Shown one piece after another: positions 26,095-45,336 of a stretch of 64,000 bases of DNA (position 1 is the stretch's first letter; each line of letters starts with the position of its first letter). The notes under the pieces were generated by a model. The model worked only from the letters and a program-made list of their open reading frames with translations, ran no database searches and was not told the origin of the DNA. The position numbers were made by a program, and so were the translations under genes. The stretch covers positions 935,753-999,752 of the forward strand of contig NZ_FMWX01000001.1 in NCBI RefSeq assembly GCF_900103265.1, given 5' to 3'. The DNA is from Sphingomonas sp. NFR15 (GTDB taxonomy: Bacteria; Pseudomonadota; Alphaproteobacteria; Sphingomonadales; Sphingomonadaceae).

Positions 26095-26967
26095 TCATAG
26101 CAGCGGAATGTGCGGCGCAGCGGGCAAACGTTGGGCAATCCACGACACGATGTCTTCGATGACAGCTTCCCTGCCGATATCCGATAGAAGATCGTGATAC
26201 GCTCCCTCGTAGAGTCTCAGCGCCTTATCCTTGGACCCTGTCGCCTCGTAAAAGTGCTGGCTGCCGCTGGGCCGCGTTGCTCGGTCGGCCGTGCCGTGGA
26301 GGATGAGGACCGGGGTCGTCAACTGCGAGAAGTCGCGATCCAATCGCTCTCCCGCGCGAATCAGCGCCGCTACGGTGACGAGTGGCTGGACCTCGCCAGC
26401 AATAAGGGGATCGGCATTCAGATGCTCGACCCATGCACCGTCGCGGGAAAAGTCTTCGGTCTTCAACCGCAGTACGCGGACGCGGGGTGCGACGCGACCG
26501 AACAGCTTCAGCAACGCCAGCGCAACGGCGGGCGCAGGCAGCCGGAGGGCGACGCTTTCGCAAATCAGGCCTTGCAAGCCGAACGGGTGCTCGATTGCGT
26601 ACAGGCAAGCGGCCACGCCACCGGCACCGTGTCCCAGCAGGTATAGCGGCAGGTCTTGGTCGCGTCGCCTGGCCAGCGCGATCATGGCAGCGATGTCCGC
26701 CACATAGTCGTCGAATCGTTCAACGGTGAAGCGCGGTCCGGTCGAGCGGCCGCGCCCGCGCAGATCGACGGCGTATACGGCGCAGCCCGCCGCAACCAGT
26801 CGCTCGGCCACCCACGCATACAGGCCGCCATGCGCGTTGAACCCGTGGCAGATGGCAACGACCGCGCGCGGCAACGATACGGGGCGCCAACGGCGGACGA
26901 AAATAGCCGCACGATCGACCGACAGGGTAATCTCTTCAGGAACCACGCGAAAGGCGCCCTCGGCCAT
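26095..26967 (-). CDS. alpha/beta hydrolase (monoacylglycerol-lipase-like) lacking its nucleophile Ser
   Basis: 290 residues, serine aminopeptidase S33 / monoglyceride lipase layout: 'VVAICHGFNAHGGLYAWVAE', 'AVDLRGRGRST', 'PVLILHGTADRATRP', 'GAYHDLLSD'. The elbow reads 'YLLGHGAGGVAACL', so the canonical GHSxG serine is Gly114 while the Asp and His regions remain. The codon is GGT, not a frameshift. It is either inactive as a hydrolase or uses a different chemistry. Not known to be co-transcribed with neighbours. Confidence 0.85.
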   Translation of the reverse strand: MAEGAFRVVPEEITLSVDRAAIFVRRWRPVSLPRAVVAICHGFNAHGGLYAWVAERLVAAGCAVYAVDLRGRGRSTGPRFTVERFDDYVADIAAMIALARRRDQDLPLYLLGHGAGGVAACLYAIEHPFGLQGLICESVALRLPAPAVALALLKLFGRVAPRVRVLRLKTEDFSRDGAWVEHLNADPLIAGEVQPLVTVAALIRAGERLDRDFSQLTTPVLILHGTADRATRPSGSQHFYEATGSKDKALRLYEGAYHDLLSDIGREAVIEDIVSWIAQRLPAAPHIPLL

Positions 26968-27329
26968 CGTTCAACTCCTCCTCACGAACGGGATCGTTGA
27001 AAAACACGCCCGCAGCGCGAATGCGGGATTTGATAGCGAGCACGACGGCATGACAGTCATGCTGCGGCCTTCCCCTCGTGCCTGCTCACCGTCATACGCC
27101 ATATCCGTGCCGCGCTCTGGTGAGCTATGGTAAGGCGCGGTTAAGTGCGGGCGTTACGCGCGCGTCACGCATCCGATGACCATGCGCAGACGTCGCCTTC
27201 CTTTATTGAAGGGCAGGGTCACGGCGAGCCGTGGAAAATTCCTCGTGGATCGCTAGGATAGCCATAACGGATATGAAGGACGGCGGCGACTTCGGGCATC
27301 GGAAGGGCGCCATCGGGGATCGGGATAGC
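26968..27329. other. 362-base gene-free stretch with a perfect palindrome
   Basis: No convincing gene. GCATGACAGTCATGC (27048-27062) is a perfect 7+1+7 palindrome, roughly 80 bases upstream of the minus-strand hydrolase start and 270 bases before the response regulator. It may be an operator. A minor dyad CCTTC...GAAGG lies near 27200. Confidence 0.45.
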
Positions 27330-27947
27330 GTGACGATACGGGTGTTGACGGTCGACGATCACGCAACGGTCCGCGATGGCGTGGCCGCGCTGATCGCGCG
27401 GCAACCGGACATGGAAATCGCAGGCGAAGCGGCGAACGGCATCGAAGGGGTAGCGATGTTCCGCGCGCTCACGCCCGACGTGACGCTGATGGACCTGCAG
27501 ATGCCGGACCTGAACGGCATCGACGCGATCGGCGCGATTCTGGATCTATGCCCTCGGGCGAGAATCCTTGTACTCACCACCTATTCCGGAGACGCGCAGG
27601 CGGTGCGGGCGATCCGCGCCGGAGCTGCTGGCTATCTGCTCAAGAGCTGCCTGCGCACCGAGTTGCTGGACGCGATCCGCACCGTCCATGCCGGCCGCCG
27701 CGCGATGAGCGCTGAAATCAGCCACGCCGTGGCCGAACATGCGCTGGACGAACCGCTTACGGATCGCGAAATGGCGATTCTCGGCATGGTCGCCGAAGGG
27801 CATCCCAACAAGCAGATCGCGCGGGATCTCGACCTCTCTCCGGATACGATCAAGTCGCACCTCAAGAACATCTTCGCAAAGCTGGGGGTGGACGATCGCA
27901 CCCATGCCGTGACCGTTGCGATCCGGCGCGGCTTCTTCCAACGCTGA
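27330..27947 (+). CDS. NarL/FixJ-family response regulator
   Basis: About 205 residues. Receiver domain with acidic pair 'VDDH', phospho-acceptor Asp55 in 'LMDLQMP', 'LTTYSGD' and the Lys of 'YLLKS'. C-terminal NarL HTH 'PLTDREMAILGMVAEGHPNK' then 'TIKSHLKNIFAKLGVDDRTH'. GTG at 27330 gives the family-typical N-terminus; upstream in-frame codons do not look like a receiver. Its likely kinase is the HisKA_3 sensor at 28575, separated only by an opposing wHTH gene. Confidence 0.88.
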   Translation: MTIRVLTVDDHATVRDGVAALIARQPDMEIAGEAANGIEGVAMFRALTPDVTLMDLQMPDLNGIDAIGAILDLCPRARILVLTTYSGDAQAVRAIRAGAAGYLLKSCLRTELLDAIRTVHAGRRAMSAEISHAVAEHALDEPLTDREMAILGMVAEGHPNKQIARDLDLSPDTIKSHLKNIFAKLGVDDRTHAVTVAIRRGFFQR

Positions 27948-27968: not shown

Positions 27969-28349
27969 TCAGTTCTGCACGTCCGCGATGAATCGATAGC
28001 CGCGCCCGGTGACGGTGGCGATGTAGCGCGGAGCCTCGACCACTTCGCCCAACACCCTGCGCAGGCTGGCGACATGCACCTTGAGATTACCATCGCCGAC
28101 GAACGTGTCGGGCCAGGTGCGCGCGCGCAGTTCGCGCTTGCTGACGACCTCCCCTGGCCGCTCGACCAATATGGTAAGGATGTCGAGTGCGCGGGCGCCG
28201 ATCTTGACGGGAACGTCGTGCTTGAGCAGCGACTGCCGGCCAGGCCTGAGGATAAACGGACCGAAGCGGAAGCATTGCTCGACCGCTCGCACGAAGGGGC
28301 CTTGATAGAAGGGCGGCGGCGCGGGCATCAATACAGTAATAGACGACAT
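27969..28349 (-). CDS. stand-alone OmpR/CadC-type winged-helix regulator
   Basis: 126 residues from the ATG at 28349 (GGGGAG about ten bases upstream). The whole C-terminal 95 residues are a winged-helix DNA-binding domain ('CFRFGPFILRPGRQSL', 'RALDILTILVERPGEVVSKR', 'VTGRGYRFIADV'). Usual relatives carry a receiver, a membrane segment or an ATPase/TPR module; here nothing follows. It lies head-to-tail between the response regulator and divergent from the sensor kinase, so it may control the sensor gene. Confidence 0.8.
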   Translation of the reverse strand: MSSITVLMPAPPPFYQGPFVRAVEQCFRFGPFILRPGRQSLLKHDVPVKIGARALDILTILVERPGEVVSKRELRARTWPDTFVGDGNLKVHVASLRRVLGEVVEAPRYIATVTGRGYRFIADVQN

Positions 28350-28574
28350 GCCGACGATCTCCCCGTCGCATTGCTCCGGCCGGTCTTCGGCGGGTGTAGT
28401 TCCGGCCGCCACGCCATAGCCAGAGCAATGTTGTTGTGCCGCGAAGACTATGCCGCTGCTGACGCTGCCGCATCATACGGGCGGGTTAGCTGGTCTCACC
28501 CGTTTGGGGGATCGACAGGCGCAGCATCCTTGCTTCCGCGTGACACCTGGTCCGGTTTAGCCGAAATACGCGGC

Positions 28575-31500
28575 ATGTCGTCTGCTGCGAAATATTGCGT
28601 GGTCGGGATGTTGGCGTCGCTGCCAAGCCCGTGTGACGCGCTCGGAGCGACCGTGCAGCGCACCCTCCAACAACTGCGGCATACCGCCTGGACGGCACGG
28701 GAGGGCGCACCACCGGAAATCTGGGCACTCGCCCAGTCGCGCGACGGCTATCTATGGCTGGGCACGGGGAGCGGACTGTACCAGTTCGACGGCGCGCGCT
28801 TCGAGAAGTTCCGACCCTCCAAGGGCGAACATCTACCGTCGCTCAACGTCAACGCCCTGCTTGCGAGTCGCACCGGCGACCTATGGATCGGCTTCGCATC
28901 GGGTGCCGTGGCGCGGCTGCGCGCAGGGCACCTCACCACGTTCGACCTTGGCATGCCGTCGGTGCCCGTGCTGGCGCTCGCCGAGGACCGAGCGGGTATG
29001 ATCTGGGCTGTCTTGGGCGAGGATAACAGAGGCGAAGTCGCCCGTTTTCGTCAGGGCAGATGGGAAATGCTCGGCCGCTCGCACGGTATCCCCGCAGGTG
29101 CCGCAACCAGCGTCGTCGCGGGGGTGGATGGATCGGTGTGGGTCGCGGTCGGCGGCGAACTGGAGGTGCTGCGTCCCGGCGCCACCCGCTTCGCGCGCGT
29201 CCCCGCCTCGGCTTCGGAAAGACCGCAGTTGAAACAGGCGCCCGATGGCGCGATCTGGCTGAGCACCGGAGCCCGTCCCGGTCTCCAGCGCATCGCGCCT
29301 TGGGCGGCTGGCGCACCCCCGACATGGGTGCTGCCGCCCCTATCGGCCAATCCGCGCGCAGAGAGCTTGCTGTTCGACCGACACGGCAATCTTTGGGGGA
29401 CCTATGGAAGTGGCGGCGTTTTTCGTCTCGGCGCCGGCTGGGTCGATGGTGCCCTCGTCGCCAATGGTCCGCGAGAGAAGTTCGGCGTGGAGCGCGGCCT
29501 GACGTCCAACCTCGCCAACCCCATCCTGGAAGACCGGGAAGGCAATATCTGGGTAGGGACCAATCTCGGCCTCGACCAGTTCCGAGAAACCAGCGCGGTG
29601 GTCGCCGCCGGGCTGCCGACGGACTCGCGGAACGGCTTCCGGATCGCGCGGGGCCCCGCAGGCGCGATGTATGTGACAACGAACGACGCGCTGTTCCTCG
29701 CGGGGCCGGCCCACACCGCTCGAAAGTTGGCTGAGCTTCCCCGACGTCCGCTGATCCTGCACACCGATGCGCTGGGACGCATTTGGATCGGCACGGATCG
29801 GACGTTGGGCATCTGGTCGGGCGCGGCCATGCGCGACGTGCCCTTGCCGTGGGCGCGACCAAAGCCGTTCGCGCTTCTTGAGGAAGCGTTGGGTCGGATC
29901 TGCGTCTGGTCGGCGGAAGGCGCCTTTTGCCGGAAAGGCAGAGGCTGGGCCCCGGAACAGCGGCTCGCGACCTTGGGCAATGTACCGACGCAGATACTGC
30001 GCGACGAGGCCGGGCGCCTGTGGATCGCGGAAGGCGATCGCATCGAGATGGTCGATGGCCGCAAACGGCGGGTGTTCTTCGCACGCAACGATCTTGCACT
30101 GGGCACCATCGTGGTCATCGCCGTTCGGGGGCAGCATGTTTATGCTGGCGGCGACTTCGGCCTGGCGCGTTTCGATGGCCGGCGTTTCGTCACCCTGAAG
30201 TCCGACGTCCATCCTTTCCTGAGCCGAACGGCCGGGATCGTCGAAACCTCTGCGGGTGACCTTTGGCTCAATACCGCCGGCGGCGTGGTCAAGATCGCGC
30301 GCGCCGCCTTGGACGACGCGTTCGAACACCCCGCACGGCCGATCAAAGCACGCGTGTTCGACCGGGACGACGGCATGCCCGGCGTGGCGCAGCAGGATTC
30401 GTGGTCGCAAACCGCGGTCGAAGCGACGGACGGCCGAGTCTGGTTTCTGACCAGAGTCGGCGTCGCCTGGATCGATCCCAAGCAGGTGTTCTCCAATCGG
30501 CTGCCCCCGCCGGTGATCGTCAAATCGCTGATCGCCGGCAGACGCACCTTTGCCAACGAAGTGCCGCTCCGCCTGCCCAAGGGCACCTCCAACCTCAAGA
30601 TCGCCTATACCGCCACGAGCCTGTCGGTGCCTTCGCGCGTGCAATTCCGGTACCAGCTCGAAGGGATCGACGAAGATTGGATAGACGCGGGCACGCGCCG
30701 TGAGGCCTTCTACACTGGGCTAGCGCCGGGCAACTACCGGTTCCGGCTGATGGCGGCGAACGAGGACGGCGTATGGAACCGCCAAGGCGCGACGCTCTCC
30801 TTCGAGATCCCGCCGACCTTCGTCCAAAGCTGGCCGTTCCGCCTCCTCTGCGGTTTTGGAGTGCTGGTGCTGCTCTGGTTTCTCTACACACTCAGGCTGC
30901 GGGCCATGTCCAATCGCATCCGCGCGCGGGCGGCCGAGCGGACGGCCGAGCGCGAACGCATCGCCCGCGAACTGCACGACACGTTGCTGCAATCCATCCA
31001 GACCCTCACCCTGCACGTACAGGCGGCCGTGGAAGATCTGCCGCAGGGTACGCCGGAACGCGCGCAGCTCGAGAATGCCTTGACCCGCGCCGACCGGGCG
31101 ATATCGGAGGGGCGTGACCGCGTACGCGACCTGCGGAAGCACCGAGACCCCGAGGGGATCGTCGAGATCCTAACCGACATCGTCGCCGACAAGGGCTTCG
31201 GTTCCGCAACGAGCGTTCGCATCCAGGCGGATGGCAACCCTCGCCCGCTTGCACCGGTCGCGCTCGACGAAATCGTTCGCATTGCCGGTGAAGCCGTCGC
31301 CAACGTCCGCCAGCACGCCAGAGCGACCCAGTTGCGCATTGAAATCCGCTTCGCCCGCCCGTTCACGATCCGGTTCTCGGACGATGGCTTAGGGATTCCG
31401 GCACCCGTTCTCGAAGAGGGACGCAAGGCGCATCACTACGGACTGCAAGGGATGCGGGAAAGGGCGAGGAAAATGCGCGGCACTCTGACCATCCGATCTC

Positions 31501-31664
31501 CCTCGGAAGGCGGCACCGAGTTGTTGCTCACCATCCCCGCACACGTCGCCTATACGTGTCGCGGTGCATCGCGCTGGGCGGCGTGGCGCAACCGGGCGGC
31601 GCGTCTGCTCGGCGCCCGTCTGCGACGACGGCCTGCCGCGTCCGGGCGCACGCCCATCGATTAG
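28575..31664 (+). CDS. propeller-sensor histidine kinase (HisKA_3)
   Basis: About 1029 residues. An N-terminal signal-like stretch leads into two-component-regulator propeller repeats ('WALAQSRDGYLWLGTGSGLY', 'DREGNIWVGTNLGLDQF'), a Y_Y_Y domain ('YQLEGIDEDWIDAG'), one membrane segment ('LLCGFGVLVLLWFLYTLRL'), HisKA_3 with 'ARELHDTLLQSIQTL' and a HATPase ('EAVANVRQHARATQL', 'DDGLGIP', 'HYGLQGMRERA'). After the ATPase there is an extra ~40-residue Arg-rich tail. ATG at 28575 is chosen because upstream sequence has no domain; its ribosome site is weak. Partner: response regulator at 27330. Confidence 0.88.
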   Translation: MSSAAKYCVVGMLASLPSPCDALGATVQRTLQQLRHTAWTAREGAPPEIWALAQSRDGYLWLGTGSGLYQFDGARFEKFRPSKGEHLPSLNVNALLASRTGDLWIGFASGAVARLRAGHLTTFDLGMPSVPVLALAEDRAGMIWAVLGEDNRGEVARFRQGRWEMLGRSHGIPAGAATSVVAGVDGSVWVAVGGELEVLRPGATRFARVPASASERPQLKQAPDGAIWLSTGARPGLQRIAPWAAGAPPTWVLPPLSANPRAESLLFDRHGNLWGTYGSGGVFRLGAGWVDGALVANGPREKFGVERGLTSNLANPILEDREGNIWVGTNLGLDQFRETSAVVAAGLPTDSRNGFRIARGPAGAMYVTTNDALFLAGPAHTARKLAELPRRPLILHTDALGRIWIGTDRTLGIWSGAAMRDVPLPWARPKPFALLEEALGRICVWSAEGAFCRKGRGWAPEQRLATLGNVPTQILRDEAGRLWIAEGDRIEMVDGRKRRVFFARNDLALGTIVVIAVRGQHVYAGGDFGLARFDGRRFVTLKSDVHPFLSRTAGIVETSAGDLWLNTAGGVVKIARAALDDAFEHPARPIKARVFDRDDGMPGVAQQDSWSQTAVEATDGRVWFLTRVGVAWIDPKQVFSNRLPPPVIVKSLIAGRRTFANEVPLRLPKGTSNLKIAYTATSLSVPSRVQFRYQLEGIDEDWIDAGTRREAFYTGLAPGNYRFRLMAANEDGVWNRQGATLSFEIPPTFVQSWPFRLLCGFGVLVLLWFLYTLRLRAMSNRIRARAAERTAERERIARELHDTLLQSIQTLTLHVQAAVEDLPQGTPERAQLENALTRADRAISEGRDRVRDLRKHRDPEGIVEILTDIVADKGFGSATSVRIQADGNPRPLAPVALDEIVRIAGEAVANVRQHARATQLRIEIRFARPFTIRFSDDGLGIPAPVLEEGRKAHHYGLQGMRERARKMRGTLTIRSPSEGGTELLLTIPAHVAYTCRGASRWAAWRNRAARLLGARLRRRPAASGRTPID

Positions 31665-32586: not shown

Positions 32587-32777
32587 CGGCACCTCATGTC
32601 AGAACGGCATGGCGGTGCCGGGCACCCCTTCTCTCCGCCGGCGATTAGTGCGGGACAAGTAAATCGATGTAAATTGAAGTCTCCAGGCGAGATGCGGCTA
32701 GTCGCGCAGATATCTCACGCGATCCAGCTTTACGGCGTTTTACACCAAATGACACCAGCCTTCGCCAGACTCGCGTA

Positions 32778-32803
32778 CCTCTAGAGGAGTCTCATTACGT
32801 AAT
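32778..32803. promoter_or_regulatory. paired palindromes before the secreted hydrolase
   Basis: CCTCTAGAGG (32778-32787) and ATTACGTAAT (32794-32803) are two perfect 10-bp palindromes, 21 bases before the ATG at 32825. They are candidate operators for the divergent hydrolase pair; the regulator is not identified. Confidence 0.4.
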
Positions 32804-32824: not shown

Positions 32825-33802
32825 ATGAAACGAATGCTCAGGGTCGCAGCGCTCGCTGCGGTGATGATCGCCGCCACTCCTGCTTCGCTCGCGTACGCCA
32901 AGAGTGCGCCGCAGCCGCCCGCACCCATCAGCGTGCCGGTGATCCACTATCGCACTGCCGCGATCGATGGGGTGAAGATCTTCTACCGCGAGGCCGGCCC
33001 TGCCGACGGGCCGGTTGTCCTGCTGCTGCACGGCTTCCCCACCTCGTCGCACATGTTCCGCAACCTGATCCCGCTGCTCGCCGACAAATACCGCGTCATC
33101 GCGCCAGACTATCCCGGCTACGGCCAGAGCGACGCGCCGGACCACTTGCAATTCTCATACACGTTCGCCAACCAAGCGGACGTCATGGACAAGCTGGTCA
33201 CGCAGCTCGGCGCCAAGCGCTACGCGATGTATGTCATGGATTATGGTGCGCCGATTGGCTACCGGCTCGCGCTCAAGCACCCGGAGCGGGTGAGCGGACT
33301 CATCGTGCAGAACGGCAACGCGTATGACGAGGGACTGCAGTCACCGTTCTGGGATCCGATCAAAGTCTATTGGCGGGATCGCTCGCAGAAGAACCGCGAC
33401 GCGCTGAACGGCCTGGTCACGCTCGACATCACCAAGTTCCAGTACACCGACGGGATGGGCGACGTCGCCCGCATCAGCCCCGACAACTGGGTGCACGATC
33501 AGGCGTTGCTCGATCGCCCCGGCAACCGCGACGTGCAGCTCGACATGCTCGGCGATTACGGCTCGAACGTGCCGCTATACCCGCAATTCCAAAATTTCTT
33601 CCGCACGCGCCGACCGCCGACGCTGATCGTGTGGGGAAAGAACGACAAGATCTTCCCGGAGGAGGGCGCGCATCCCTATCTCCGGGATCTGCCGAAAGCC
33701 GAGATTCACATCCTTGATTCCGGGCATTTCGCCTTGGAGGACCGCCTCGACGTGATGGCGCCGCTGATCCGCGATTTCCTCGATCGCAGTATCACGACAT
33801 GA
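32825..33802 (+). CDS. secreted alpha/beta hydrolase with Asp nucleophile
   Basis: 325 residues with a signal peptide ('[20 protein letters not shown]'). '[20 protein letters not shown]', '[13 protein letters not shown]', elbow '[15 protein letters not shown]' (Asp139), '[14 protein letters not shown]' and 'LDSGHFALE'. It is clearly a paralogue of the protein at 31711-32586 but exported, so the cell may have periplasmic and cytosolic versions of one activity. CAAGGAG lies before the ATG. An epoxide or alkyl-halide substrate is plausible but unproven. Confidence 0.87.
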
Positions 33803-34034
33803 CGGGCATTGCCGTGCCCGCGATGCCCCGGTGGCTCGCGGGCAACGTCAGGCGGCGATTCGATGGCGCTGATCGAGGCCGGGCATTCGGGCGCGAATGC
33901 TCTGGCGTTTGTCGCCCGCACTTTGGTAAATTCCGGTAAAACAGCGTCGCATCGGTCGCAAAAGATGATCCGGCGATATAGCGCAGCCGCCGGTCACTAC
34001 TTGCCCGAGCGGCACTGTCGAAATGGAGTATCTG

Positions 34035-35009
34035 ATGCAGGGGCCGGCGGGTTGGACGAGACGATCGGCGTTGCGGGCCGCTGGTACGATGGCGGGGACG
34101 AGCCTGTTGGGCGCGAACGCATGGGCACGTCGCGCCGACATCCCCAGCACCGACGGCTATGCTTCGGTGCCTGGCGGCAAGGTCTATTGGCGGCGGTTCG
34201 GCACCGGCGGCAAGACCCCGCTGCTGACGTTGCACGGCGGGCCGGGCGCCGCGCACAATTACCTGCTGTCGATGCAAGCGCTGGCTGACGAACGTCCGGT
34301 GATCTTCTTCGACCAGTTGGGGTGCGGCAAAGCGGACGCACCCCAGGACGAGGATATCTACACCATCCAGCGCGCGGTCGATGAAGTCGATGCCGTGCGC
34401 GCCGCGCTGGGTCTGCGCGATGTCGTGCTCTACGGCCATAGCTGGGGCACGCTGCTGGCGATCGAATATCTGTGCCAGGGCCGCGGCGCGGGCGTCGAAC
34501 GATTGATCTTGGGCGGCGCCTTCGCGAGCGTGCCGCAGGTGGTGGCCGGGATGCAACGGCTGATCGCCGGCATGCCTAATGGCTTCGCCGCGCGGATCCA
34601 CGCGCTCGAGGAAGCCGGCAAAACCGGCACGCCCGAATATGCGGCGCTCGTCCAACAATTCTATGATCGGTTCCTGATGCGGGTTCCCCCGACGCCGGAC
34701 GCCGCGGCGAGCTTCGACGCACTGGGCAAGTCGATCGCCTATCAGGTGCTCAACGGGCCGAACGAGTTCACCATCGTCGGCAAGATCAAGAACTGGGATC
34801 GCCGTAAGGACTTGAAGCAGATCACCCAGAAGACGCTGCTCACCACCGGCGCGTATGACGAAGTGACGATGGAGTGCCACACTACGCTCCGCGACGGCCT
34901 GGCCGGCAAGACCCGGCTCGCGGTGATGCGCGGCTGTTCGCACATGACCATGGTGGAAAAGCCAGACGAGTATAACGCGTTGCTCCGCACGTTCCTGGCC
35001 GAAACCTGA
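34035..35009 (+). CDS. exported proline-iminopeptidase-family hydrolase
   Basis: 324 residues. A twin-arginine-like leader ('TRRSALRAAGTMAGTSLLGA') precedes the catalytic part: 'TLHGGPGAAHNYLLSM' (S33 oxyanion hole), 'FFDQLGCGKAD', nucleophile 'YGHSWGTLLAIEY', and the His near 'GCSHMTMVEKPDEY'. The start at 34035 is preferred because GGAG lies just upstream, inside an alternative ATG at 34023. Family members release N-terminal proline or hydrolyse amides/esters. Confidence 0.85.
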   Translation: MQGPAGWTRRSALRAAGTMAGTSLLGANAWARRADIPSTDGYASVPGGKVYWRRFGTGGKTPLLTLHGGPGAAHNYLLSMQALADERPVIFFDQLGCGKADAPQDEDIYTIQRAVDEVDAVRAALGLRDVVLYGHSWGTLLAIEYLCQGRGAGVERLILGGAFASVPQVVAGMQRLIAGMPNGFAARIHALEEAGKTGTPEYAALVQQFYDRFLMRVPPTPDAAASFDALGKSIAYQVLNGPNEFTIVGKIKNWDRRKDLKQITQKTLLTTGAYDEVTMECHTTLRDGLAGKTRLAVMRGCSHMTMVEKPDEYNALLRTFLAET

Positions 35010-35047: not shown

Positions 35048-36058
35048 TCAGTCGCCCGAACCAAAAGGCGCGGCGGGATCGATCAAGCCCGCATCCCGCA
35101 GCGCGCCCCAGAATTGCGGGGGAATCGTCTCCGACAGCGCCGCACGATCCTCCGCGATGCGGGCGGGCCTGCTTGCGCCGGGAATCACCGCCGCTACCGC
35201 CGGATGGGCGAGCGCGAAATGCAATCCTGCGGCCTTCATGCTGATCCCGTAGCGATCGGCGATTGCCTTGATCGACGCGACCTTGGCAAGAATCTCCGCA
35301 CTGGCCGGCGCATATTCGAAATTAGGGCCACCGACGAGAACCCCCGAACTGTATGGTCCGCCAATGACGATACCGAGGTCGCGCTCGATGATTTTGGGCA
35401 TCAGGCGTTGTAGCGCGCGCCCGTGATCGAGCAGCGTGTAGCGCCCGGCGAGGAGCGATCCGTCGGGCTGGGGGGCGTCAAGATCGAGAAGGATTTCGAT
35501 CGGCTCGACGCGATTGACGCCGAGGCCCCACGCCTTGATCACGCCTTCACCCTTCAACCGATCCAGCACCGTGAAGGCGCCTTTACGGGCGCTCTCGAAT
35601 TGCTCGAGCCAGGCGTCGCCATAAAAATCCTGGGCGACATCATGGACCCATATGATATCGATCCGATCGGTCTGGAGCCGTTTCAGACTGTCTTCGATCG
35701 AACGCAGCGTCGCGTCGGCCGAATAGTCGTTGATCACCTTATTCGCACGGCCATGGGCGAACACATCCCCCTTTTCGCCATTGTCGCGCGCGCCGGGCTC
35801 GATCTCATCGAGAACGATGCGGCCAACCTTGGTGCTGATCACATAGTCGTCGCGCGGCTTGTCCTTGAGCGCTACCCCCATGCGGAGTTCGGCAAGGCCC
35901 GCTCCGTAGAAGGGCGCATTGTCGAAATAGCGGATGCCGTCCTGCCAAGCCGCTTCCACCGTCGCCAGCGCCTCCTCCTCGGGAATCGCGCGGAACATAT
36001 TGCCGAGCGGCGCAGCGCCGAAGCCAAGCCTGCCGGGTAGAATATCCTTGAGAGCCAT
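35048..36058 (-). CDS. aldo/keto reductase (D-threo-aldose/pyridoxal dehydrogenase-like)
   Basis: 336 residues. TIM-barrel AKR motifs: 'GFGAAPLGNM', catalytic 'YFDNAPFYGAGLAELRMG', 'ISTKVGR', 'DIIWVHDV' and 'GLHFALAHPAVAAVIPGASR'. This arrangement matches the D-threo-aldose 1-dehydrogenase / L-fucose dehydrogenase branch. AGAGGAA precedes the ATG at 36058. The ABM gene upstream is 18 bases away, so they form one unit. Confidence 0.87.
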   Translation of the reverse strand: MALKDILPGRLGFGAAPLGNMFRAIPEEEALATVEAAWQDGIRYFDNAPFYGAGLAELRMGVALKDKPRDDYVISTKVGRIVLDEIEPGARDNGEKGDVFAHGRANKVINDYSADATLRSIEDSLKRLQTDRIDIIWVHDVAQDFYGDAWLEQFESARKGAFTVLDRLKGEGVIKAWGLGVNRVEPIEILLDLDAPQPDGSLLAGRYTLLDHGRALQRLMPKIIERDLGIVIGGPYSSGVLVGGPNFEYAPASAEILAKVASIKAIADRYGISMKAAGLHFALAHPAVAAVIPGASRPARIAEDRAALSETIPPQFWGALRDAGLIDPAAPFGSGD

Positions 36059-36076: not shown

Positions 36077-36373
36077 TCAGGCGACGATGAGCGGTTCGAG
36101 GCTGAACGCCTTGCGTTCGGCCAACTGTGCGATGGTCGCCAGATAGCGCTGGTAGTGCGGTGTCGCGCGGTGCGCATCGCGCGCCCCGGCATCGACGTAG
36201 AGTTCGTCGAGTACGAAGACGCCCGGCTCGGCCGGATCGGCCCACAGGTCGTAGCGCAGGTTCCCCGGCTCCGCACGGCTCGGTTCGATCAGACCTTCGA
36301 GCAGCGCCTGCAAGTCCGCTTCCTTACCCAGGCGAGCCGTCAGCACGCCGACGGTCTTCACGTTGCGGATCAT
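36077..36373 (-). CDS. ABM-domain (antibiotic biosynthesis monooxygenase-like) protein
   Basis: 98 residues. 'VGVLTARLGKEADLQALLEG', 'EPGNLRYDLW', 'FVLDELYVDAGARDAHRATP' and the end match the YgiN-type dimeric alpha-beta barrel. These proteins oxidise quinols or act as small co-factor-free monooxygenases. GGAGGAG directly upstream fixes the start at 36373. Co-transcribed with the AKR. Confidence 0.85.
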   Translation of the reverse strand: MIRNVKTVGVLTARLGKEADLQALLEGLIEPSRAEPGNLRYDLWADPAEPGVFVLDELYVDAGARDAHRATPHYQRYLATIAQLAERKAFSLEPLIVA

Positions 36374-36429
36374 CTCGCTCCTCCATCGCGGCCGCCGGAC
36401 GAACCGTCCCATGCCGGCGCTCTTGTAGC

Positions 36430-36449
36430 GCGGCCCTTTTCGGGGCCGC
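36430..36449. other. GC hairpin in the ABM / DJ-1 divergent gap
   Basis: GCGGCCC pairs with GGGCCGC over a TTTTCG loop (7-bp stem) in the 235-base divergent gap. It could shield one promoter from readthrough. Confidence 0.4.
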
Positions 36450-36468
36450 AGTTAAGTCAGGTTAATTT

Positions 36469-36565
36469 TGGAGAAGGTTACTCAGCCGCCGAAGGGAACC
36501 TGTCCATGCCTTAACACTACGTTACCGCAATTGACGCGCCCTGCCTGAGGGATGGGACTAGATAA
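36469..36565 (+). repeat. duplicated upstream element, copy 1
   Basis: 97 bases that recur at 39636-39730 with about 12 differences. The core at 36517-36537 is identical in both. It contains GGAACC, TACGTTACCGCAATTGACG and TAGATAA. It lies 43 bases before the DJ-1 gene start, which suggests a shared promoter/regulatory module rather than mobile DNA. Confidence 0.7.
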
Positions 36566-36608
36566 TCCCTGCACTGCTGCTGAGCCGATCCGGACCAGGG
36601 AGGACATG

Positions 36609-37403
36609 ATGAGCAAAGGCAAGGTCGTCGTTATTGGTTCCAATGCCAATCGCATTGAAACCAAAGGCGGATATTGGGGAGATACCGGTAATTACTTGAA
36701 TGAGACAGTGGTTCCGATGCTGGCGCTCATCGATGCCGGCTATGAAGTGGTGCTTGCGACGCCCAATGGCGCGCCACCGACGATCGATAAAGCCTCGGAC
36801 TCCCCCGCGCACTTTGGGGGCGATGAGCAGGCCTACGAGCACGCGAAGCGTTTCTGGGCCGAGGACCCGTCGATGAAGGGCCGCACTTTGCGCTCGATCC
36901 TCGACGAGGGCATCGAAACGTATGATGGGATCTTTATCCCTGGCGGCCAGGCGCCCATCGTCGACTTGATGCAGGATCAGGAACTCGGTGAGATGCTGCG
37001 CCATTTCCATGCGTATCAGAAGCCGACGGCGATGCTCTGTCACGGCCCGATTTCCTCGAGTGCCGCCATGCCATACGCACGCGAGTTCCGCGCTGCGCTG
37101 ATCGCCGGCGACGAGGCAAAGGCGAAGGAATGGTCCGAGGGCTGGCAATATGCCGGCTACCGAATGACCGTGTTCCAAAAGTCCGAGGAGAAGGTGATCG
37201 AGGACACGATCCTCCACGCCAAGATCTATTTCGACATGCCCTATGCGCTCGGCCTGGCGGGCGCCGTCGTTGATACCGGGCCGGACTTCGAGCCTTATGT
37301 CATCGAGGATCGCGAACTGATCACGGGCCAGAACCCCCGCTCGGACCACCCGATCGCCAAGGCCCTGATCGCAGCCCTGGATCGCAAACTCGGCCACGCC
37401 TGA
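36609..37403 (+). CDS. DJ-1/PfpI-superfamily (class I GATase-like, Hsp31-type) protein
   Basis: 264 residues. 'NYLNETVVPMLALIDAGYEV', 'DGIFIPGGQAP' and the nucleophile elbow 'TAMLCHGPISSSAAM' with a cysteine. Members are glyoxalase III, deglycase or chaperone-like stress proteins. GGGAGGA fits the second of two adjacent ATGs (36609); the first is 36606. The upstream repeat element is shared with the hydrolase at 39769. Confidence 0.85.
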   Translation: MSKGKVVVIGSNANRIETKGGYWGDTGNYLNETVVPMLALIDAGYEVVLATPNGAPPTIDKASDSPAHFGGDEQAYEHAKRFWAEDPSMKGRTLRSILDEGIETYDGIFIPGGQAPIVDLMQDQELGEMLRHFHAYQKPTAMLCHGPISSSAAMPYAREFRAALIAGDEAKAKEWSEGWQYAGYRMTVFQKSEEKVIEDTILHAKIYFDMPYALGLAGAVVDTGPDFEPYVIEDRELITGQNPRSDHPIAKALIAALDRKLGHA

Positions 37404-37505
37404 CCTGCGCCGAATGCTGTCCGAAGCCGCGCGCCATGGACCTCGGTGTCAACCTTACGCGGCCCCAGCGCACGCGCGCGCCCTGTTCAACCTGGAGTGA
37501 CGACG

Positions 37506-38267
37506 ATGAAACATCATATTGCAGGAGTACTCCTCGCCATGGCCACCACCGCTTCCGCCACCGCCCAAACACACGCGCCGAACAAGCCCGTCTCGATCGT
37601 GCTGGTGCATGGCGCCTTCGTCGACGCGTCGGGCTGGAAGTCGGTCTACGACATTCTGACTAAGGACGGGTATGAGGTGCTGGTCGTCCAGAACCCGACC
37701 GTCACGCTCGACGGTGACGTTGCGGCCACCCGCCAGGTGATCGCGAAGGCAAGCAAGCCGGTTGTGCTGGTCGGCCACAGTTATGGCGGCGCCGTCATCA
37801 CCGAAGCTGGCGCCGATCCCAAGGTGAAGAGCCTCGCCTATATCGCCGCGCTCGCGCCCGATGTCGGGGAATCGGTGTACGAACTGGCGACCCGGCCGGT
37901 GCCGGGCGAAGCCGGTCCGCCGCTGCTGCCGCCGGACGACGGGTTCATCATCGTCGATCCCGTCAAGTTCCCGAGCGCCTTCGCGAAGGATGTCGACGTC
38001 TCGATCACCGGCTTCATGGCGGTGGCGCAGGTTCCTTGGGGCCTGGCTGCGGTGCAGACCAAGCTCGCCACGGCGGCATGGCGCGACAAACCGGTTCGCT
38101 GGATGCTGACGTCACAGGATCACATGGTCTCGCCGACCACCCAGCGCTTCATGGCGACCCGCGCCAAGGCCAAGCTGACCGAGATCAACAGCAGCCACGC
38201 GGTCATGCTGTCCCACCCGAAGGACGTAGCCGCGTTCATCGAGGCGGCGGCCGCCGGCGCCGACTAG
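37506..38267 (+). CDS. secreted alpha/beta hydrolase
   Basis: 253 residues with a signal peptide ('AGVLLAMATTASATAQ'). 'IVLVHGAFVDASGWKSVYDI', nucleophile 'LVGHSYGGAVITEAG', 'RWMLTSQDHMVSP' and 'NSSHAVMLSHPKDVAAFI'. This is the esterase-like family often annotated EstC/salicylate-esterase-like. GGAG nine bases upstream of the ATG. It is followed by a strong hairpin. Confidence 0.87.
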   Translation: MKHHIAGVLLAMATTASATAQTHAPNKPVSIVLVHGAFVDASGWKSVYDILTKDGYEVLVVQNPTVTLDGDVAATRQVIAKASKPVVLVGHSYGGAVITEAGADPKVKSLAYIAALAPDVGESVYELATRPVPGEAGPPLLPPDDGFIIVDPVKFPSAFAKDVDVSITGFMAVAQVPWGLAAVQTKLATAAWRDKPVRWMLTSQDHMVSPTTQRFMATRAKAKLTEINSSHAVMLSHPKDVAAFIEAAAAGAD

Positions 38268-38274
38268 CCCCCGC

Positions 38275-38308
38275 TCCAAGGACGGCGCACCACGGCGCCG
38301 TCCTTGGA
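38275..38308 (+). terminator. strong hairpin after the secreted hydrolase
   Basis: TCCAAGGACGGCGC pairs perfectly with GCGCCGTCCTTGGA across ACCACG: a 14-bp stem with a 6-base loop, seven bases after the stop. Confidence 0.75.
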
Positions 38309-38457
38309 CATTGTCGAGATCCAAGGCCGCTCGATCTGCCGCACTGATAGAGTTGCGGCACGGTTGACTGCGATCGCGGTGCCGGCGCTGGCTGTGCGCG
38401 TTCCGATCCCTGGCGCGCCCGGCGGTCGATCCAAATATATGTTGAGGGAGATGTCCC

Positions 38458-39366
38458 ATGGCCGATGGATCAGACACGCCGAAGGCGGTTAACCGCCGCC
38501 AAGCGATCACCTTGGGGGGCGCCGCACTCCTCGCCTCGGCGCTGTCCGCCGCGAGCGGCTCAGTCGGTGCCGCTAGTTTGGACCCGGCAAACACGAATAG
38601 CCTGACCCAGGTGCGCAACGCCACATTGCGCATCAAGTATGGCGGCGTCCGCTTCCTTGTCGACCCGGTGCTGGCGGACAAAGACGCCTATCCCGGCTTC
38701 GAAGGGACGGCGAACAGCCAGCGGCGCAACCCGCTGGTGCCGCTACCCATGCCGATTGCTTCGATCATCGACGTGGACGCCGTCATCGTGACGCACCTGC
38801 ATCCCGATCATTGGGACGAGGCGGCGAAGGCCAAGCTGAACAAGGCGCTGCCGATCTTCGCGCAGAATGCCGGCGATGCCTCCCAACTCCGCTCGGCAGG
38901 CTTCGCAGACGTCCGCGTTCTGACCGAGAGCACCGAATTTCGTGGTGTGCACTTGAGCCGCACCGGCGGGCAGCATGGCACTGACGCGGCCCTCAAGGCA
39001 TTACCGCAGATCCTCGGCCCGGTCAGCGGCTTCGTCATGCGCCATCCAGCGCACAAGACGCTGTACGTCGCGGGGGATACGATCTGGAACAGCCAGGTCG
39101 AGCGCGCCATCGCCACCCACGCCCCGGACGTCATCGTCCTGAACGCCGGCATGGCGACCGTGATTGGCCTCGATCCCATTATCATGGGGCCGACCGACGT
39201 CCTGGCGGTGCATCGGGCCGCGCCGAACGCGATGCTGATCGCCAGCCACATGGAAGCCGTGAACCACTGCATCCTCAGTCGGGCCGATCTGCGCACCTTC
39301 TCGAAGCGCGACGGATACGAACAACACCTACGTATCCCCGCCGATGGTGAAACGCTGGCGATCTGA
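38458..39366 (+). CDS. exported MBL-fold metal-dependent hydrolase (UlaG-like)
   Basis: 302 residues. A twin-arginine-like leader ('VNRRQAITLGGAALLASALS') is followed by a beta-lactamase fold: 'LRIKYGGVRFLVDPVLADK', metal motif 'THLHPDHWDE', 'LYVAGDTIWN' and 'ASHMEAVNHC'. It resembles UlaG lactonases and related phosphoesterases. GAGGGAG fixes the start. It stands alone between a terminator and the repeat-element gap. Confidence 0.85.
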   Translation: MADGSDTPKAVNRRQAITLGGAALLASALSAASGSVGAASLDPANTNSLTQVRNATLRIKYGGVRFLVDPVLADKDAYPGFEGTANSQRRNPLVPLPMPIASIIDVDAVIVTHLHPDHWDEAAKAKLNKALPIFAQNAGDASQLRSAGFADVRVLTESTEFRGVHLSRTGGQHGTDAALKALPQILGPVSGFVMRHPAHKTLYVAGDTIWNSQVERAIATHAPDVIVLNAGMATVIGLDPIIMGPTDVLAVHRAAPNAMLIASHMEAVNHCILSRADLRTFSKRDGYEQHLRIPADGETLAI

Positions 39367-39635
39367 AAAACGGTTCTGCACGTCGCGAGGCAAACGCAAA
39401 CGGCCAGGAGGCTGCTTTCCGGCGCATTGCTGCTGCTTGGCAAAACCGCGCGGGGACAGCGGGCCGGTCGCGGTAAAGCGAGACGCTTGATCTCAACACC
39501 AGGGGCGTCTTCCCGCAAAATGCGCATCTGGCTTGGAAGCCAAGCCGCATGACCCGCGAGACATCCGATAGCGAACACGGGCAGCTCTGGCCGGCCAGCT
39601 CTCCGGGCACCTTCGCGGTCAACCCTGATCAAATC
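39367..39635. other. gene-free part of a 402-base gap
   Basis: No gene supported in either strand in 39367-39768 apart from the repeat element that follows. I see no strong structure in this first part. Confidence 0.4.
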
Positions 39636-39730
39636 TGGAGAAGGTTGCTCAGCCACCGAAGGAACCGACCCATCCTTTAACGCTACGTTACCGCAATTGA
39701 CGCCCCCTGCCGAGGGATGGGTCTAGATAA
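39636..39730 (+). repeat. duplicated upstream element, copy 2
   Basis: Second copy of the 36469-36565 element, with the identical core at 39683-39703. It ends 38 bases before the hydrolase start at 39769. The position relative to the gene is nearly the same in both copies (43 and 38 bases), which supports a regulatory role. Confidence 0.7.
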
Positions 39731-39768: not shown

Positions 39769-40587
39769 ATGCCGACGATCGCTACTCACGACGGCGCGAA
39801 CATCTTCTACAAGGACTGGGGATCGGGTCAGCCGATCGTCTTCAGCCACGGTTGGCCGCTTTCGGCGGACGACTGGGACGCCCAGATGATGTTCTTCCTC
39901 AAACAGGGCTATCGGGTGATCGCGCATGATCGGCGCGGCCATGGCCGGTCCGACCAGCCCGGCGCCGGCAATGACATGGACACCTGGGTCGCCGATCTCG
40001 CGGCGCTGACCGAGCATCTCGACTTGCGCGATGCGATCCATATCGGGCACTCGACTGGCGGAGGTGAGGTGGCTCGCTATGTCGCGCACCACCAGGATCG
40101 CGTTGCCAAGGCGGTGCTCGTCGCCTCTCTGACACCGAACATGTACCGGGGCGAGGACAACCCGTCGGGCCAGCCGCCCGAGTGGTTCGAGACCATTCGC
40201 GGGGGCGTGCTAGGCAACCGGGCGGAGTTCTACCGTTTCGTCCCCGAGAATCCGTTCTACGGCTACAGCCTCGACGGAGCCGAACCTTCGGAGGCGATCA
40301 TCGCGAACTGGTGGCGCCAGGGCATGGCCGGCGGCGCCCTTGCGCACCTCGCATCGGTCGACTCCTGGCTCGAAGACTATACTGCGGACCTCGAGAAGAT
40401 CACCGTGCCGGTGCTGGTGATGCATGGGGAGGCGGACCAAGTCGTCCCGTTCGCCAGTTCTGTGCCGCGCGCGGTCGATCGGCTCCAAAAGGGGTCGCTG
40501 AAGGCATATCCCGGCTATCCCCATGGCATGCTGACCACCCATGCGGATGTCCTCAACCCCGACCTGCTGGCGTTCATCAGGTCGTAA
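39769..40587 (+). CDS. alpha/beta hydrolase of the non-heme chloroperoxidase type
   Basis: 272 residues. 'IFYKDWGSGQPIVFSHGWPL', 'HDRRGHGRSDQP', nucleophile 'IGHSTGGGEVARYVA', 'VLVMHGEADQVVPF' and 'YPHGMLTTH'. Layout and lengths match cofactor-free haloperoxidase/esterase proteins (perhydrolase activity is common). GGAG lies eight bases before the ATG. No signal peptide. Confidence 0.9.
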   Translation: MPTIATHDGANIFYKDWGSGQPIVFSHGWPLSADDWDAQMMFFLKQGYRVIAHDRRGHGRSDQPGAGNDMDTWVADLAALTEHLDLRDAIHIGHSTGGGEVARYVAHHQDRVAKAVLVASLTPNMYRGEDNPSGQPPEWFETIRGGVLGNRAEFYRFVPENPFYGYSLDGAEPSEAIIANWWRQGMAGGALAHLASVDSWLEDYTADLEKITVPVLVMHGEADQVVPFASSVPRAVDRLQKGSLKAYPGYPHGMLTTHADVLNPDLLAFIRS

Positions 40588-40807: not shown

Positions 40808-43800
40808 TTAGTCCCGGTGTAACCAGCGGTACAGGCTGGGCAACAAAACCAGCGTGAGAAGCGTCGAGGTGGCGATACCGCCGATCACCACGGTCGCGAG
40901 CGGGCGCTGTACCTCCGCCCCCGCGCCGGTCGCGATCGCCATCGGCACGAACCCGATCGAGGCGACCAAGGCGGTGGAGAGCACCGGCCGCAGGCGGTCG
41001 CGGGCGCCCTGGCGGACGGCGGCGTTGGCCGATAGCGGCTCGCCCTCTCGCCCCTCGCGCAGTCCGTTGATATGGTCGATCAACACCAGCCCGTTGAGCA
41101 TCGCGATGCCCGATAGCGCGATGAAGCCGATCGCGGCGGTGATCGAAAAGGGCATGCCGCGCAGCCATAGCGCCAGCACGCCGCCGGTGATCGCGAAGGG
41201 GATGCCGGTGTAGACGATCGCCGCCTCGCGGACGCTGCCGAGCGCCGCATAGACCAGAGCGAAGATCAGCAGCAGCGCGGCGGGTACGACGATCGACAGC
41301 CGCTGCTGTGCCGCCTCGAGCTGGTGATACTGGCCACCGAATTCGATGCGATAGCCGGGCGGAAGCTTGATCCGTCGATCCAGTTCGGCGCGCGCCGCGG
41401 CGACATAGCCGGCGAGATCGCTGGTCGAGAGGTTGACCATCAGCGCGGCGCGACGATTGCCATTGTCGTGCAGGATCGGTTCCACCATCCTCGCCTCGCG
41501 CAGCCGGGCGACGCGCGACAGCGGCACCATGCCATAGGCGCCGACGCGCAGGGGCAGCGCGAGGATGGCATTGGGGTTGGCGCGCAGCCCTTCGGCCATG
41601 CGGATCACGATCGCGTGGCGCGCGGCATTGTGCGGGATGAAGCCGACTTCGGCGCCCGCCACCGCGTCGCTGATCGCCCTGTTCACCTCCTGCGTGCCGA
41701 TGCCGAGCCGCAGCAGCGCGGCATGGTCGAGCTCGACGACGATCGTCTTCGGGCGCCCGGTCGTCTCGAACTCGACGCTGGCGGTGCCGGGCTGTTTCTC
41801 CAGGATCGCCTTCGCCTGGGCGGCCGCGCGTTCCAGCACGTCGTAATCGTCGCCGTAGATCTTCACCGCGACGTCGGCGCGCACGCCTTCCAGCATCTCG
41901 TTGAAGCGCATTTCGATCGGCTGGGCGAAGGCGAGGGTCTGCTCGGCATAAACCTGTTGCGCCACCTTCTCGATACCGGCGATCAGGTCCTGCTTGGTGC
42001 GCGGCTTGCCCGGCGCGTGCGGCCACGTCTTTTCGGGCGCGTAGAAGAGGTAGAGGTCGTTCTGCTCGGGCGGCATCGGATCGGTGGCGACTTCGCTGGT
42101 GCCGATGCGCGAGAAGCTGTGCGTCACCTGCGGAAACGCCTTCAGGATCGCCCGCTCGGTGGCCTGCTCGATCGCGAGGCTGCGCTCGAGCGACATGCCG
42201 ACCGGGCGATAGACCATCGCCGTGATCGCGCCCTCGTCGAGTTGCGGGGTGAATTGCGACCCGAGCGTGCGGAAGGTGAGGACGGTGCCACCCAGCAACG
42301 CCACCGCACCGATCACCAGCAGCAGCGGATGCGCGAGCGCGGCCGAGAGCACCGGCGTATAGACGCGATCGGCGAGGCCCATCACGCCCTTCTCACCACC
42401 CGTCTCGGCGTGGTCCGCCGGCGCACGAAGCAGCCAGGCGCCGAGCATCGGCACGATCGTGAAGGTCCAGGCGAGCCCGGCGACGATCGCCAGCATCACC
42501 GCCTGCGCCATCGGCTGGAACAGCTTCCCCTCCACGCCGCCGAGGCTCAGCACCGGCACATAGACGAGCGCGATGATCGCGATGCCGAAGAACGTCGGCC
42601 GCGCGACGCTGCGTGCCGCTTCGCCGACGATCGCACGGCGCTCCTCCAGCGTCAGGTCCGCGCCCTTCTCCCGCCGCCGCACGGCGAGCAGCCGCAGCGC
42701 ATTCTCGACCACGACGAGCGCGCCGTCAACGATCAGCCCGAAGTCGAGCGCCCCCAGACTCATCAGATTGCCCGACACGCCGATCGCATGCATGCCGGTG
42801 ACGGTGACGAGAAAGGCGAGCGGGATCACCAGCGCGACGATCAGCGCCGCGCGCCAATTGCCCATCACCACCAGCAGCACCAGCGCGACCAGCAGCGCGC
42901 CCTCGCCGAGGTTGCGCTCGACGGTGTGGATCGTACGATCGACCAGATCGGCGCGGCTATATTGCCGGTCGATCACCATGCCCTTGGGCAGCGCCGCCTG
43001 GATATCGGGCAGCGCGCCTTCGATGCGCAGCGCGACCTGCCGGCTGTTCTGGCCGACCAGCATCATCGCGGTGCCGAGCACCGTCTCGCGCCCGTTCTGC
43101 GTCGCCGCGCCCTGGCGCGGACCATGACTGGTGACGACAGTGGCGAGATCGCGCACCTGCAAGGGCAGCACGCCGCCGGCGAACTTGACGGGAATCGCGC
43201 CGATCTCCTGCGCGGTCATCACCCGCGCGTCGGTACGCACCGCGAAGCGTTCGCTGCCGCGCGCGATGATGCCGCCGCCGGCATTCTCGACATTGCCCGC
43301 CACCGCCTGCGCCAGTTCGGCCGCGGTCACCCCGTGGGCGGTGAGCTTCGCCGGGTCCGGCTGGACGACATATTGCTCCTCCAGCCCGCCGTTCGAGTTC
43401 ACATCGGCCACGCCGGGTACGGCACGCAGCATCGGCCGCACGGTATATTCCTGCGCCTCGTACAACTCCATCAACTGCCGCTCCGCCGACATGCCGGGTC
43501 GCGGCCGCCGCCATTCGAGCGTGTAGTAATAGATTTCGCCCAAGCCCGTGGTGATCGGCGCCAGTTGGGGCGTACTGCCGGCCGGTAGCTGGTCGCGTAC
43601 CGCGTTCAAGCGCTCGGTGACAAGTTGGCGCGCCTTCAGTTGATCGGTGCCGCCCTTGTAGAGCAAGGTCACCTGGCTCAGCCCGGTCTTGGTCACCGAA
43701 CGTGTCTGGTCGAGCCCTGGCTGGCCGCCCATCGCGCGTTCGATCGGCAGCGTCACCAGCCGCTCGATCTCCTCGGGGGCGAGCGCGGGCACCTGGGTGT

Positions 43801-43945: not shown

Positions 43946-43954
43946 GCCGTGGCC

Positions 43955-45208: not shown

Positions 45209-45336
45209 CTTCCGCCTCCGATCGATCCTGCCGCCCCCTAACCCTGCCGCTTTACGGCCGTCGACTAAAACCGCGTTCAGAGTCTGAAACGCAATTCAGT
45301 TGACCGCGCGCGCGTGCCCGCCACACATGCGCAGGC
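45209..45336. promoter_or_regulatory. divergent control region of pump and two-component system
   Basis: TTCAGAGTCTGAA (45276-45288) is a dyad, and TTCAG recurs at 45295-45299, giving repeats about 19 bases apart as expected for an OmpR-type regulator. This fits control of the pump operon (minus) and autoregulation (plus). Confidence 0.5.

Follow-up and report, generated by a model that had tools for sequence, protein, structure and literature searches.

Why does nearly the same 95-bp stretch of DNA stand before two different genes, and what might it do there? The question is raised by a 64,000-nucleotide stretch of the Sphingomonas sp. NFR15 genome (contig NZ_FMWX01000001.1, positions 935,753 to 999,752; the whole stretch is called the window here). 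In it, a first-pass annotation made from the letters alone had marked a duplicated element before a DJ-1 gene and a chloroperoxidase-like (CPO) alpha/beta-hydrolase gene. Judged from sequence, the two copies look like activator-dependent promoters rather than mobile repeats or RNA leaders. We consider it likely that each is a promoter combined with an operator, and that a small winged-helix (wHTH) protein encoded in the window would bind it, recruit RNA polymerase, and co-activate the genes of one cluster.

Architecture of the repeated element

The two copies are 88% identical (E 2.6e-26) and share an exact run of 21 bp (CTACGTTACCGCAATTGACGC), as the annotation had described (Table 1). The distances of 38 to 43 bases that it gave also held, with 40 or 43 bases from the end of copy 1 to the DJ-1 ATG (36606 or 36609) and 38 bases from the end of copy 2 to the hydrolase ATG (39769). 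Its coordinates were right, but a weaker likeness runs about 22 bp further upstream (36447 and 39614), and over 124 aligned columns, from a divergent array to past the -10, the copies are 80% identical. The two genes had been called unrelated; they are not homologous, but both lie in one conserved gene neighborhood. A 20-bp core, TACGTTACCGCAATTGACGC, has two matches in the window at up to 3 mismatches (0.01 expected from shuffles), and these two are the only strong copies found in the 4.4-Mb genome. When copy 2 was searched against 397 genomes of the family, the matches outside its own genome were short (19 to 32 bases; E 0.002 to 0.009; 7 genomes), and a search of 201 genomes of the genus with copy 1 matched 3 other genomes.

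Each copy carries three tandem T-N-A-C half-sites at exact 10-bp steps, followed by 22 to 23 bp and a -10-like TAGATA. We aligned 26 such sites (upstream of DJ-1, CPO, and two hydrolase positions, with three rhizobial DJ-1 sites included), and T3 A5 C6, T13 A15 C16, and A25 C26 were invariant throughout, in 10-bp steps. A TA at offset 22 or 23 past the third half-site was also present in 26 of 26, compared with at most 6 of 26 for other non-overlapping offset pairs, although the number of independent cases is below 26, given that many of the sites are related and that the TA was in view when we positioned the three rhizobial ones by hand. The TA falls outside the 28-base core used for profile training, and it begins a range of -10-like hexamers (TAGATA, TACAAC, TATGAC, TACCTC, and TAAGAC). 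The full pattern of three half-sites, 22 or 23 nt, and TA occurs 4 times in the window, against a mean of 0.05 in Markov controls.

This layout explains an oddity that the annotation had seen, namely GGAACC and TTGACG at a spacing unlike that of a standard promoter. Both motifs are present, but TTGACG is the third half-site and not a -35 element, and GGAACC is not conserved in three relatives (see below). An ordinary sigma-70 promoter with TTGACG as its -35 was rejected on the distance to TAGATA, which is 21 to 22 nt where sigma-70 spacing is 16 to 18 nt, and a scan for consensus sigma-70 promoters found none at the element.

Copy 1 appears to be half of a bidirectional promoter; a divergent array of two half-sites reads away from DJ-1 toward a gene for an antibiotic-biosynthesis-monooxygenase (ABM) domain protein, which is followed by an aldo/keto reductase (AKR) gene. 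The same divergent layout, with TA at 23, is present in six other genomes (genomes are labeled G and loci L here): G054, G002, G141, G078, G051, and G707. G051 has the array, but its stretch yielded no ABM gene call, and G090 has no divergent array in that gap. The CPO copy retains a decayed version of the divergent array, with no TA at the expected place and no divergent gene. The copies are closer to each other (the 80% given above) than to the DJ-1 promoters of G054, G002, and G141 (69 to 74% for either copy). A CPO gene of 88% identity stands after ABM and beside the DJ-1 promoter in G707 and in a Caulobacter. The simplest account would be that, in this lineage alone, the bidirectional ABM/DJ-1 promoter underwent a duplication that gave CPO a unit of its own.

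Table 1. Window coordinates of the copies, sites, and genes discussed
Feature	Position	Strand	Basis or remark
Copy 1, predicted promoter/operator of the DJ-1 operon	36469..36565	+	88% identity to copy 2; kept before DJ-1 orthologs
Half-sites TAAC / TTAC / TGAC, copy 1	36512..36535 (36512, 36522, 36532)	+	site alignment, 10-bp period
-10-like TAGATA, copy 1	36559..36564	+	23 nt after third half-site
Copy 2, predicted promoter/operator of the CPO-like hydrolase	39636..39730	+	likeness to copy 1; model search
Half-sites TAAC / TTAC / TGAC, copy 2	39678..39701 (39678, 39688, 39698)	+	site alignment
-10-like TAGATA, copy 2	39724..39729	+	22 nt after third half-site
Divergent array TAAC, TTAAC at 10 bp, 23 nt, TACAAG; predicted ABM/AKR promoter	36422..36464	-	two half-sites
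Vestigial divergent array (TTGAT, TTGAC)	39614..39640	-	by eye
Third site: three half-sites, 23 nt, TATGAC; reads toward alpha/beta-hydrolase 26095-26967	27092..27145	-	same place in G002, G141, G054, G096
Fourth site: three half-sites, 22 nt, TACCTC; before alpha/beta-hydrolase 32825-33802	32728..32781	+	same place in G002, G141, G054, G096
Weak two-half-site match, opposite orientation, in gap before alpha/beta-hydrolase 34023-35009	33921..33941	-	E 0.057 in window
Standalone OmpR/PhoB-type wHTH protein, 126 aa, no receiver; candidate regulator	27969..28349	-	Trans_reg_C, E 1.3e-17
NarL/LuxR-type response regulator	27231..27947	+	Response_reg + GerE; beside wHTH gene in sphingomonads, not in rhizobial loci
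Sensor histidine kinase, Reg_prop propeller + Y_Y_Y domains	28350..31664	+	start 28350 provisional; longest ORF, from 28074, overlaps wHTH gene
Alpha/beta-hydrolase, predicted target	26095..26967	-	domain search
Alpha/beta-hydrolase, predicted target	32825..33802	+	domain search
AKR, downstream of ABM	35048..36058	-	domain search
ABM domain protein, predicted target of divergent array	36077..36412	-	domain search
DJ-1/PfpI family gene, predicted target	36609..37403	+	domain search
Alpha/beta-hydrolase, second gene after DJ-1 (longest ORF)	37446..38267	+	order kept in several relatives
Metallo-beta-lactamase-fold (MBL) gene, third gene after DJ-1	38458..39366	+	order kept in several relatives
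CPO-like alpha/beta-hydrolase, predicted target	39769..40587	+	domain search

Further sites and their conservation

Both a profile and a sequence-only model (R1) were trained on 8 cores from 7 genomes, namely seven DJ-1 upstream regions and the CPO copy. Scanning the window with the profile gave 5 matches above 12 bits (both copies, 32728 on the plus strand, and 27145 and 33941 on the minus strand), all of them intergenic and within the hydrolase/DJ-1 cluster. In contrast, 200 column-shuffled profiles gave a mean of 0.29 and a maximum of 4, and none reached 5. Two of the three additional matches (27145 and 32728) show the full layout and precede alpha/beta-hydrolase genes; the function of the third is doubtful, with no clear promoter layout. 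An enlarged model built from the 26 sites (R2) found 4 sites in the genome itself, all inside the 15-kb cluster; in this search and in the R1 search of the window's own genome, 150 of the first-look candidates per genome were scored. Two R2 matches fall outside the sites that it was trained on, at E 0.016 in G090 and E 0.58 in G707, and each precedes the ABM gene there.

The additional sites recur at corresponding places in relatives. The 19.5-kb stretches of G054, G002, and G141 each held exactly two profile matches above 12, all outside the training set. One lies by the ortholog of the response-regulator gene, like the 27145 site, and the other where the ortholog of the 32825 hydrolase begins; shuffles reached two matches in 0, 3, and 1 of 200 trials, respectively. 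In G002 and G096, the site is separated from the 26095-type hydrolase by an isochorismatase-family gene (L113:9140-9820 and L169:7942-8709); the 178-bp gap at the third site in the window has no room for one.

When 199 genomes were searched for DJ-1, 19 of them yielded 23 matches. TTNAC...TTAC...GACG-like letters are common to the regions upstream of the six closest (79 to 100% identical, the window's own included), and the core was not found upstream of the other 17 (55 to 69% identical). At 15 of these 17 distant homologs there seems to be a divergent LysR-like gene (identified by eye from the start of its frame); LysR control is not the case for the window's DJ-1. A TetR-like frame near DJ-1 in L005, also named by eye, was set aside. 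Of 20 DJ-1-bearing sequences tested, 16 have an upstream site, 14 with three half-sites and 2 with two. L137 was left out of this count because its DJ-1 match is split; an array with TA at 23 is readable there. Two more arrays were seen elsewhere: a second site in G054 (L111, G054:C104, 341-726) before an apparently partial or diverged DJ-1 frame on a 7-kb contig, and a good-looking half-site array in G707 (L120:6641, plus strand; profile score, 25.1) with no cluster target gene nearby.

The search for further copies that the annotation had proposed turned up no strong one in this genome beyond these two. Upstream of DJ-1 orthologs, the layout is found again in Sphingomonas, Sphingobium, Caulobacter, and Rhizobium. 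The same site architecture stands before several enzyme genes of the cluster and before orthologs in other genera, which supports the annotation's suggestion of a shared regulatory module. DJ-1, ABM, AKR, MBL, and the alpha/beta-hydrolases form one conserved neighborhood, and this set of targets suggests that a reactive small molecule is detoxified or broken down.

Candidate regulator and alternative readings

The best candidate for the regulator is the 126-amino-acid wHTH protein, whose gene is easily missed since the longest histidine-kinase open reading frame (ORF) on the other strand overlaps it. Trans_reg_C is the sole domain found (64.1 bits; Pfam cut-off, 26.2), and Pfam found no N-terminal receiver domain in it. 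An AlphaFold model based on a 9-sequence alignment had a mean pLDDT of 81.9, and its best Foldseek matches were ToxR (8b4d) and CadC (5ju7), with PhoB (1gxp) in the top 15. The domain shares 62% identity with the wHTH of four Rhizobium proteins of a wHTH-STAND-TPR type. For instance, on plasmid pRLN5 of Rhizobium leguminosarum, DJ-1 carries the same site, and a 944-amino-acid protein encoded beside the cluster has matches to Trans_reg_C, a STAND-type NTPase, and TPR, those to the NTPase and TPR being weak.

Among the 16 site-bearing DJ-1 sequences, 12, including all 6 rhizobial ones, have a wHTH match in the fetched stretch, though only a partial one at the edge in L124 and one at 41% identity in L131. 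Four have no visible wHTH; three of these (L121 to L123, matching G054, G141, and G002) have one elsewhere in the genome, and the stretch of the fourth (L126, Caulobacter) ends near the response regulator. Across 295 genomes of the genus, 117 show a wHTH match at E ≤ 1e-8, often as part of a long frame, and only the 9 with a match at E ≤ 1e-36 were counted as having the standalone protein. Six of the 7 R1-training genomes are among these 9 (hypergeometric P, 7e-10, ignoring relatedness); DJ-1 rather than wHTH had been the basis for choosing them. Of the 3 wHTH genomes outside the training set, 2 (G096 and G707, but not G683) also belong to the 8 further genomes that have an R1 site at E < 0.1 (P, 0.002, again ignoring relatedness). 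We give the two parts separately because pooling them (8 of the 9 wHTH genomes are among the 15 R1 genomes) lets the training genomes inflate the overlap.

Another regulator considered, the OmpR-type response regulator at 45337-46014, was rejected: it has no close homolog in the compared stretches, and the only match by it is at chance level (45957, E 0.14). It lies with a kinase-like gene beside RND-type efflux pump genes (40808-47368), downstream of the CPO gene.

Of the readings that differ from ours, the one that survives best keeps the promoter/operator but has the array bound by the NarL/LuxR-type response regulator, phosphorylated by the propeller histidine kinase, with the wHTH protein as an accessory. 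Response regulators of this family are found near DJ-1 in several sphingomonad loci, and a site adjoins the response-regulator gene in the window's genome, G002, G141, G054, G096, and G683, the last of which has both this regulator and wHTH. We nevertheless regard this reading as unlikely. The response regulator is present in 7 of the 16 site-bearing loci but in none of the 6 rhizobial ones, where site and wHTH are both present (the search covered these loci, about 20 kb each), and none is annotated in the 45-kb pRLN5 stretch. Moreover, it also occurs in L048 and L049, where DJ-1 lacks a site, and tandem 10-bp direct repeats would better suit an OmpR-type domain. Genomes carry several paralogous NarL-type regulators (e.g., L173:12120-16048), some of them beside propeller histidine kinases and hydrolase genes.

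A promoter for the general-stress sigma factor EcfG is suggested by GGAACC followed by GTT in both copies, but we find it very improbable. The Sphingomonas melonis motif is GGAAC-N17-20-GTT as given in an excerpt of PMC6599016, and the spacing here is N21 in both copies, one above that range. Further, GGAAC reads GCGAC in G054, G002, and G141 and does not appear in the 14 bases preceding the hydrolase and rhizobial sites. The structured leader that the annotation had offered as its other option, or a riboswitch, would fit an element that is no more than about 140 bases from either of two start codons, but we hold it to be very improbable: the folding z-scores are +0.60 and -1.46 for the copies and +1.36 and +1.00 for the stretches from the -10 into the gene, Rfam gave no match in the window, and the element lies upstream of and ends with the predicted -10, so that a transcript from its own promoter would not contain it. 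A mobile, MITE-like repeat or a chance duplication with no regulatory role, which two similar copies 3.2 kb apart might suggest, can be set aside with near certainty, since the genome holds only two strong copies, both before genes of one cluster and not at random sites, the core is conserved at orthologous positions over large distances while its flanks are not, and 72,556 plasmid records gave no match at the sensitivity used.

Several observations weigh against the wHTH protein as the activator at these sites. In the genus, the standalone wHTH gene adjoins the response-regulator gene in 9 of 9 genomes, and linkage cannot separate the two there; the co-occurrence figures ignore relatedness, and the genes of the cluster may travel together. 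The G051 locus (L131) has a site but only the 41% identical wHTH nearby, and L048 (G042) has a 38% identical wHTH but no site. The protein is without a sensing domain, the half-sites have a period of 10 and not 11, and the array ends 22 to 23 bp from the -10, compared with 8 bp for the 3' repeat of SARP promoters in an excerpt of PMC10936776. The model searches also call for caution. R1 matches at E ≤ 0.5 occur in 50 of the 295 genomes, many of them probably by chance; one in G695 (E 0.0086) sits inside a called ORF, and the R1 listing of the window's own genome lacks the 32728 and 27145 sites. The best R2 E-values were 1e-9 to 4e-5 in ten genomes with a site and/or wHTH, against 0.11 at best or none in ten control genomes, but R2 re-finds the sites it was built from, including those of the ten genomes, and so describes specificity and is no independent test. 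R1 E-values alone prove nothing, and it is the placement of the matches that counts, as for the 27145-type sites found with R1 in G002 (E 0.26), G141 (E 0.33), and G096 (E 0.067).

With these points weighed, activation by the wHTH protein is still the reading that we hold to be likely. The protein would bind the three half-sites head to tail, one per 10-bp helical turn, and the array ending 22 to 23 bp upstream of the -10 would stand in for a recognizable -35 and recruit RNA polymerase. From the three half-sites, the spacing, and the lack of a recognizable -35, we infer that the protein array would abut the polymerase. The DJ-1 operon, the CPO-like hydrolase, the ABM/AKR operon, and the two further alpha/beta-hydrolase genes would be switched on together. 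In sphingomonads, the NarL-type response regulator and the propeller histidine kinase probably feed the signal in and may set the level or activity of the wHTH protein; in rhizobia, the wHTH would instead act fused to the STAND NTPase and TPR part.

More tentatively, it is possible that one cis code was kept while the signaling module was exchanged. The rhizobial wHTH would then lie in a STAND/TPR sensor-like protein, and the free-standing sphingomonad wHTH would read the same operator code, with sensing left to the propeller kinase and the NarL-type regulator, which would make this an undescribed system. The literature that we searched held no description of this operator or cluster and no function or inducer for it. 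If our reading is right, a bare 95-bp repeat becomes a readable operator code with a candidate regulator and defined targets (DJ-1, ABM, AKR, a metallo-hydrolase, and several alpha/beta-hydrolases), in a cluster common to sphingomonads, a Caulobacter, and rhizobia, where it lies once on a plasmid. In rhizobia, the same winged helix is fused to a STAND-type protein, which offers a direct experimental handle on the signal, and the CPO copy suggests a route, promoter duplication, by which a gene may join a regulon.

Comparison with known systems

The predicted operator has tandem direct-repeat half-sites in helical register, as do operators of the OmpR family, whose domains bind direct-repeat half-sites. 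KdpE and PhoB share with the candidate an OmpR-type winged helix and head-to-tail, T-rich half-sites. According to an excerpt of PMC3264566, the KdpE half-sites are TTTATA and TTTACA, the latter resembling the TTNAC of this array; they are two 6-bp half-sites with 5 bp between them, whereas there are three at 10 bp here. Unlike the OmpR/PhoB response regulators, the candidate is without a receiver domain. In this it resembles ToxR, CadC, and HilA, which have an OmpR-type wHTH without a receiver and were the best NCBIfam and Foldseek neighbors, but the scores are far below the cut-offs (59.1 versus 589 for HilA/EilA and 43.6 versus 400 for CadC), and the 126 residues hold no further domain.

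SARP/AfsR regulators are similar to the rhizobial relative in the order of their domains (wHTH, STAND-type NTPase, TPR), and they also use direct repeats near the promoter; the excerpt of PMC10936776 gives these a period of 11 or 22 bp, in contrast to 10 bp here. Pfam did not find the BTA domain in the rhizobial protein, and the window protein is a wHTH only. Membership in these families is therefore partial: the candidate has an OmpR-type winged helix but is not a response regulator, and its rhizobial relative is AfsR-like in domain order only.

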